Positions 46,053 to 48,028 of a stretch of DNA of 64,000 nucleotides are shown here, piece by piece. How positions within the stretch are numbered: the first letter of the stretch is position 1; the number at the start of each line of letters is the position of its first letter. A model generated the notes under the pieces. It was not told where the DNA came from, made no database searches, and was given only the letters and a program-made list of their open reading frames with translations. The DNA comes from Candidatus Nitrospira kreftii (GTDB lineage Bacteria; Nitrospirota; Nitrospiria; Nitrospirales; Nitrospiraceae). The stretch covers positions 2,046,001-2,110,000 of the forward strand of contig CP047423.1 in assembly GCA_014058405.1 (NCBI GenBank), written 5' to 3'. A program made the position numbers and the translations under genes.

Positions 46053-46943
46053 ATGGAGATCCGTATGCGTCGTCGGGAGTCGTTCGTCTGCCTATGCCTC
46101 CTTCTACTTTCTAGTCTCGCAACTTCAGTTATCGCCTCAGAACCCGCTGACCCAGAGAGTGCCATCCGCCAGATGGTGCGAGCCAACGCCGAAAAAGATC
46201 TCCCAACGCTGTCTCGCCTCATGGCACATGATGCCGACATCACCAGTTATTCCGTCGGCGGACGAAAGTACGTCGGTTGGCCTGAGTTCGAGCGCGAAAT
46301 GCGTGAAGAGTTCGTCAACACCAAGAAAATCGAGATTCCCATTACCGAACTCAAGGTCTGGACGAAAGGTGACTTGGCCTGGTTTACAATGGAGCTCGAC
46401 TATATCCGCTATGTGAGCGAGGGATCAGAGGTCAAGCGAACCGTGCTCCCGCTGAGAGAAACCGGCGTGCTTGAGCGTCGCGCGGGCCGGTGGCAGTTGT
46501 TGTCGTGGCATGAATCGTTTCGATCGGCTCAGCTGGGTGGTCCACTTGCCTCCCCCTCAGCAAGCGCCGGATCGCATCGTCTCGTCAGCGATGCCGTCAC
46601 GACGGCGATGCCGGATGTGAGCGGGGAATGGGAAATTCTCGAAGTCGAGGACGAAAAACGATACAAAGCAACATTGGATAAGAGTGGGAATGGCCCCTAT
46701 ACCCAGCACGGTGGACGCTTCGTGACCACCAACTTCGCCGACCGACTCTGGCAGGGTACGTGGCAACAACCCGGCAACGATCGTGAAGGTGGATTTGAAG
46801 TTCTTCTGGCAGAGGACGGCACTGCGGCGAAGGGAATCTGGTGGTACACGCGTGTGGGCAACCACAAAAATATTCCCCCTCGGGAACATGGCGGCACCTA
46901 TGAATGGAAGAAACTGACGCCGAAACCGGCACATGCCCAATGA
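46053..46943 (+). CDS. Exported SnoaL/DUF4440-like protein with C-terminal beta domain
   Basis: 296 residues from ATG 46053 (MEIRMRRRESFVCLCLLLLS), with a signal ending near VIASEPADPES. A SnoaL-like cone domain covers about 30-150 (AIRQMVRANAEKDLPTLSRL, AWFTMELDYIRYVSEGSEVK). A second domain (about 185-290) has SGEWEILEVEDEKRYKATLD and KGIWWYTRVGNHKNIPPREH, a stand-alone beta fold that I do not recognise. The longer start at 45996 is not supported. Confidence 0.75.
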   Translation: MEIRMRRRESFVCLCLLLLSSLATSVIASEPADPESAIRQMVRANAEKDLPTLSRLMAHDADITSYSVGGRKYVGWPEFEREMREEFVNTKKIEIPITELKVWTKGDLAWFTMELDYIRYVSEGSEVKRTVLPLRETGVLERRAGRWQLLSWHESFRSAQLGGPLASPSASAGSHRLVSDAVTTAMPDVSGEWEILEVEDEKRYKATLDKSGNGPYTQHGGRFVTTNFADRLWQGTWQQPGNDREGGFEVLLAEDGTAAKGIWWYTRVGNHKNIPPREHGGTYEWKKLTPKPAHAQ

Positions 46944-47026: not shown

Positions 47027-48028
47027 ATGCGCGGATTCCTCATCTCTCTGATTACTGCCCTATTCATGGTTACGTCAGCTTATGCGGATGGAGGACACAA
47101 CCACCATGCCGTGCCTACGTTGAAAAAACAGGTAGGTTCAAAGATCACCTATGGAGAAAACACGGCGACTTTGACCTTCGGCCCCATCGATCTTCCGGCT
47201 GGCCATACTGAAGGCGACATGGGTGACTCCATGCCTCGCTTCAACTTTCAGCTGCCTGAAGATAAGTATTTAATCGGCTTCAAGTCGGCCCTTTCCACGG
47301 TCGACGGGAAGGAATTACCTCGAAACTACCTCCACCACATCCTGATGATCAATAACACCCAGCCCAGCTTGTCCTGCCCCGGTGAACCACTTTTCTTCGG
47401 CGGAGCCGGACTCGAGATGGCCGAGACTCAATTTCCACAGGGCTACGGTGTCAAGCTGGACAAAAATGATAAGCTCATGACGGTCGTCGCGTTCTATCAT
47501 GGCGCTCCGCCTACCAAGAACGTGATTGCAACCTTTACGATGTACTTCGCACCGAAATCAAAACCGGTCCAAGCGATGAACATCTATCAGGTAGGGGTCA
47601 ACATCGTCTGCTTCACGAAGTTCGGCGACCGTCCTGCCGATCAGACCGACGAAGGTATCGAGATTAGGCATGGAGTCCAAGTGCATACGGCGCCATTAAA
47701 GTTTTCCACCGACGGCTGTGTCAAGTTTGCCTATCCGCACGGTCACGACGAGTTGCTCATGATTGCCTTAGAGAATAAGACAAAGAAACAGACTCTACTC
47801 AGGACTGTGCCGGATGTTGAACGGGATGGAACGCTCCGCGAATTCTTACCGCATCAAGTCTATAAAGACGGCCAGGGATTTACTATCTCCAAAGACGATG
47901 ATTATGAAATGGTCATGGTCCATCACCACCCTCTTCAGAAAACTGAATTCCAGCATGGGATGGGTAACTATTTGCTCTACATGACCCCTGGCTCATGCTC
48001 GCAGCAGAGCGCTTCCGCCGCCGATTAG
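47027..48028 (+). CDS. Secreted PHM/Nod19-like protein, possible copper monooxygenase
   Basis: 333 residues from ATG 47027 (MRGFLISLITALFMVTSAYA), a signal peptide. The mature protein begins DGGHNHHAVP and shows the copper-ligand layout of peptidylglycine hydroxylating monooxygenase: YLHHILMIN (His103-His104), VVAFYHG (His158), AYPHGHDELLM (His238, His240) and HGMGNYLLYM (Met312 or Met319). The distances (54, 80 and 72-79 residues) resemble 64, 70 and 70 in PHM. Six Cys residues could form disulphides. The YLHHILM and FFGGAGLEM segments also recall Nod19 proteins. The substrate is unknown. The start at 46904 is rejected because it lies inside the previous gene. Confidence 0.6.
   Translation: MRGFLISLITALFMVTSAYADGGHNHHAVPTLKKQVGSKITYGENTATLTFGPIDLPAGHTEGDMGDSMPRFNFQLPEDKYLIGFKSALSTVDGKELPRNYLHHILMINNTQPSLSCPGEPLFFGGAGLEMAETQFPQGYGVKLDKNDKLMTVVAFYHGAPPTKNVIATFTMYFAPKSKPVQAMNIYQVGVNIVCFTKFGDRPADQTDEGIEIRHGVQVHTAPLKFSTDGCVKFAYPHGHDELLMIALENKTKKQTLLRTVPDVERDGTLREFLPHQVYKDGQGFTISKDDDYEMVMVHHHPLQKTEFQHGMGNYLLYMTPGSCSQQSASAAD

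Follow-up and report, generated by a model that had tools for sequence, protein, structure and literature searches.

A predicted PHM/DBH-fold copper protein encoded beside an exported NTF2-like partner in Nitrospira

The open reading frame at 47027..48028 on the forward strand of the window, the 64,000-nucleotide stretch of the Candidatus Nitrospira kreftii genome analyzed here, encodes an exported protein of 333 residues that is predicted to fold as a double jelly roll like peptidylglycine alpha-hydroxylating monooxygenase (PHM) and dopamine beta-hydroxylase (DBH) and that conserves the residues corresponding to both of their copper sites. We consider it probable, at roughly 60%, that the protein is periplasmic, has the PHM/DBH fold and holds two coppers, likely using O2 to oxidize or hydroxylate a small molecule. 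Both PHM and DBH, textbook examples of copper enzymes, are known from eukaryotes; in animals they make peptide hormones and noradrenaline, respectively. An unnamed family that is near-universal in Nitrospira and carries both copper sites would extend the PHM fold to major nitrifiers, would give a small bacterial model for two-site copper chemistry and would indicate that these key players of the nitrogen cycle have a step of oxidation or copper handling in the periplasm that has so far been overlooked. The fold and the sites are already known; none of the libraries searched describes the sequence family, its bacterial lineage or its partner.

A GGGAGG ribosome-binding site lies immediately 5' of the reading frame, and the translation begins with MRGFLISLITALFMVTSAYA followed by DGGHNHH. 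An AxA cleavage site, judged by eye, places the end of the signal peptide (residues 1-20, 47027..47086, + strand) between SAYA and DGG, and this segment is of low confidence in the AlphaFold2 model. The mature N-terminus, DGGHNHH (47087-47107), is His-rich and largely conserved, with H24, H26 and H27 present in 93%, 84% and 89% of 115 distinct homologues, and is possibly an extra copper-binding site. The host genome is complete (4.13 Mb, single contig) and looks comammox, since it also encodes CopC and carries a gene of the ammonia monooxygenase A type.

The original prediction, made from the sequence alone, had placed H103-H104, H158, H238-x-H240, M312 and M319 behind a signal peptide, ordered and spaced much like the PHM copper ligands, and the translation bears this out. 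Conservation was assessed across 162 homologous copies, which reduce to 115 distinct sequences with identity down to 38%; all coordinates are on the + strand. The CuH-type HH...H triad is kept as H103-H104 (47333..47338; 115/115; start of strand 102-113), predicted to correspond to PHM H107/H108, and H158 (47498..47500; 114/115; just after strand 150-156), the predicted equivalent of PHM H172. The CuM-type HxH...M set is likewise kept as H238-x-H240 (47738..47746; end of strand 230-239) and M312 (47960..47962; just before strand 313-321), each in 115/115 and predicted to match PHM H242/H244 and M314. The interval from H240 to M312 is 72 residues, versus 70 in PHM and 73 in DBH, and the invariant P-x-G motif P137-Q-G139 (47435..47443; 115/115) stands 21 residues ahead of H158 without a gap, exactly as PHM P151-x-G153 stands ahead of H172. 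Order, spacing and strand position thus underlie the predicted equivalence to the CuH and CuM sites of PHM and DBH. The only loss of H158 is a substitution by D in the second copy of a tandem pair of PHM-like genes (L135:4862-6903; FYDH versus FYHG), which is flanked by TonB-dependent receptor genes, a DyP-type peroxidase gene and a nitroreductase-like gene, as identified by eye.

Only one of the two methionines originally put forward holds up, as M312 is the sole invariant Met of the protein whereas M319 is kept in only 106/115 sequences, with V, L or F substituting in some; because of this incomplete conservation we read M319 as not being the Met ligand. Several further conserved features had not figured in the original prediction, among them the P137-x-G139 motif and the His-rich mature N-terminus described above. 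Of all 16 His in the protein only 103, 104, 238, 240 and 300 are invariant, and H300 (47924..47926; 115/115), situated two residues beyond predicted strand 293-298, equals the ligands in conservation and has no ligand counterpart in PHM. It lies beside the predicted CuM region and could make that copper site one of a novel type. Cys117, Cys195 and Cys231 are also invariant and Cys324 is present in 114/115 (absent from one truncated copy), which suits two disulfides of an exported protein. When the mature protein was shuffled 20,000 times, the PHM pattern (HH, H, HxH, M at PHM spacing +-10) turned up in 97 of the shuffles (0.5%), and among 638 ORFs of at least 250 aa it matched 90, all of them family members and none an unrelated ORF. 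Ligand spacing by itself is therefore only moderately unlikely, and it becomes convincing through conservation and the predicted fold.

The fold was predicted by AlphaFold2 from 41 homologues and no templates, giving a model of moderate confidence (pLDDT 69.5, pTM 0.72) in which loops 199-217, 262-276 and 300-310 mostly have pLDDT below 50. AlphaFold followed by structural comparison with PHM and DBM had been proposed as the check on the original prediction, and PHM and DBH indeed emerge as the top matches. In a Foldseek search of the PDB, rat PHM takes ranks 1-16 and 18, human DBH comes in at rank 17 (E 4e-8 to 3e-6 for all 18), and other jelly-roll proteins follow below rank 18; matches in BFVD are mostly generic jelly-roll capsids. 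VIA-align superimposes model residues 41-322 on PHM 53-324 with Z 15.8 (3.5 A over 230 residues) and gives Z 14.9 for DBH, well above the level of 8 under which a Z score may reflect merely a common arrangement; the next family is the PNGases, at Z 8.3-7.2. The predicted model accordingly has the double jelly-roll fold of PHM. The predicted copper ligands all sit at strand edges of the model and follow one another as in PHM, so that fold equivalence and position point indirectly to convergence of the six ligands on two sites. A lack of such convergence was what the original prediction had named as its refutation, and the prediction withstands that test only in this indirect way.

At the sequence level this relationship all but disappears. 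The 333-aa protein has no Pfam match at E<=10 and nothing relevant in NCBIfam, a Pfam scan of 45 family members at E<=1 returned no PF01082, PF03712 or SURNod19 (PF07712), and phmmer and hmmsearch against PDB sequences gave zero matches. Alignment of the family profile by hhalign to PHM alone or to PHM plus DBH, whose letters (rat PHM and human DBH) were checked against the PDB entries, is not significant (probability 0.3-0.4%), and a low-stringency local path nevertheless pairs, unaided, LHHI with VHHM and FPxGYG with LPKGVG. A four-block PSSM scores PHM at z 3.7, equalled by 1 of 400 shuffles, and recovers H107 and H172 but places its last two blocks at 255 and 315, not at 242 and 314; DBH is not detected (111/400 shuffles as good). 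Short motifs are nonetheless common to the family and PHM, namely LHHILM/VHHMLLF, PxGxG, FAY-PHGH/FAYRVHTH and MGN/MCN. Some bacterial proteins are annotated with PF01082/PF03712 (Cu2_monooxygen/Cu2_monoox_C); neither profile was found in the host genome, PF03712 was not found among 198 genomes of the phylum in a search where positive controls were silent as well, and a literature search for bacterial PHM homologues found none in the library covered. We read the PHM-like protein as forming its own sequence family, and the kinship to PHM and DBH that we claim is one of predicted structure and ligand conservation, not of sequence. For double jelly rolls in general, relationship is usually seen through structure rather than sequence (PMC8812541).

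The genomic context adds a partner. Directly upstream, the gene at 46065..46943 (+) encodes an exported protein with a SnoaL_3/NTF2-like domain (PF13474, 3e-16; NTF2-like by Foldseek) and a C-terminal beta-rich domain. A partner domain gene adjoins the PHM-like gene on the same strand in 145/163 loci, with a median gap of 86 bp, and most partners have this two-domain arrangement. The SnoaL domain alone stands beside the PHM-like gene at four loci (L052, L127, L129 and L131), and the C-terminal domain alone does so at two, upstream of it in L130 and downstream in L100. Because each partner domain independently follows the PHM-like gene, this pattern argues for a functional link. The C-terminal domain, of about 95 aa, matches no Pfam family and is nearly invariant over WEI.E.E.RYKATLD..GNG...GTW.QPGNDREGGFEVLL.EDG.A.G.WWYTRV. 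Farther upstream lie a PP2C phosphatase gene and an RNase H-like gene, conserved in Nitrospira, and no copper-trafficking or copper transport gene is adjacent at the locus.

Homologues occur in 181/270 genomes of the class and are near-universal in Nitrospira, where only three sampled genomes are without the gene, each with >400 contigs and 4-6% contamination. The gene is not tied to ammonia oxidation, because it occurs in Nitrospira moscoviensis (L048), a nitrite oxidiser that is not known to oxidise ammonia. Searches of viral contigs, plasmids and phages yielded no homologue. Divergent PHM-like paralogues (~60% identity) are found in a separate cluster (L132:959-6382, L088, L090, L133, L087 and L089) with chlorite dismutase, a HalD-like 2OG-Fe(II) enzyme, a Rieske oxygenase, two FGE-sulfatase proteins and a CarboxypepD_reg protein of cupredoxin-like appearance. 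A short fragment similar to residues 66-107 (L098:7134-7259) is possibly a decayed copy.

Because both copper sites are kept, PHM-like chemistry is the simplest reading of these data. The first jelly roll would carry one mononuclear copper site, CuH (H103, H104, H158), and the second a separate one, CuM (H238, H240, M312); CuM would bind O2 and attack a small substrate lodged in the space between the jelly rolls, CuH would supply the second electron, and the exported partner, with its SnoaL/NTF2 pocket and beta domain, would probably bind or process the same substrate or its product. The location of ~60%-identity paralogues beside other oxidative enzymes counts in favor of such chemistry. The main rival is a non-catalytic protein of the same fold, a periplasmic carrier, store or sensor whose two sites would hold Cu(I)/Cu(II) for protection or for delivery to copper enzymes (NirK, AMO), and it draws on the near-universal presence of the gene in Nitrospira, the AMO and CopC of the host genome, the His-rich mature N-terminus and the additional invariant H300, as well as on the copper enzyme NirK, which is encoded across the analyzed genomes of the genus (PMC8115632). 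We hold this to be possible but unlikely, as both full PHM-type sites are strictly kept, including the CuH triad required for electron transfer in the enzymes, and copper transport genes are not linked to the PHM-like gene. Oxidative two-copper chemistry remains our preferred reading, and only tentatively do we extend it to a bacterial PHM/DBH-type lineage that escapes sequence detection, belongs to the core Nitrospira periplasm and oxidizes small molecules with O2 while the NTF2-type partner handles substrate or product.

The other alternatives lose ground on fold or on residues. A copper-free double jelly roll with PNGase-like hydrolysis or carbohydrate binding would accord with the PNGases being the next fold matches and with the single Pfam clan to which PHM and PNGase F belong (PMC8812541), yet we think it improbable, with Z about double for PHM/DBH and with the six ligand positions ranking first in conservation among the His and Met residues of the family. 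PNGase F is not the closest fold, at Z 7.9-8.3 versus 15.8 for PHM. That the protein is a true PHM hydroxylating glycine-extended peptides would fit fold and ligands and is nevertheless very improbable. In PHM, R240 and Y318 hold the peptide carboxylate, and a hand alignment around the ligands shows no counterpart of either at equal offsets: there is no Arg near H238 (KFAYPHGH), and the Y318 offset is occupied by L316 (MGNYLLY). With these residues absent and Cu2_monooxygen/Cu2_monoox_C unmatched, we rejected this reading; a glycine-extended peptide appears an unlikely substrate on sequence grounds, the substrate would have to differ from that of PHM because both counterparts are missing, and the small amides originally suggested as substrates are unsupported. 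The original prediction had also allowed for a fold relative of Nod19, an option that gains no support here; its inference of a PHM-type fold is well backed by the AlphaFold2 model. Membership of the plant Nod19-like SURNod19 family is hardly to be expected, and was rejected at the sequence level, with the PF07712 profile unmatched in the 45 members and also in the genome, where positive controls were silent too.

The protein can thus be placed among known double jelly rolls. PNGase F-type proteins share the overall fold class and are not known to carry copper ligands. DBH (4ZEL) is alike in predicted fold and in ligand order (HH262/263, H333, H412/414 and M487) and differs in having a DOMON domain, with 9% identity and no detection at the sequence level. 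A 2022 structural survey describes a wide distribution for both enzymes, PHM among eukaryotes and PNGase F among bacteria (PMC8812541). Compared with PHM (1PHM, 1SDW, 6ALA), the Nitrospira protein has 13% identity, goes undetected by sequence profiles, has four Cys where PHM has a larger disulfide set, carries the extra invariant H300 and has no attached lyase (PAL) domain. It resembles PHM in being exported, in the predicted fold over residues 41-322, in the PxGxG and FAY motifs, and in having all six ligands in the same order and at nearly the same distances along the chain.
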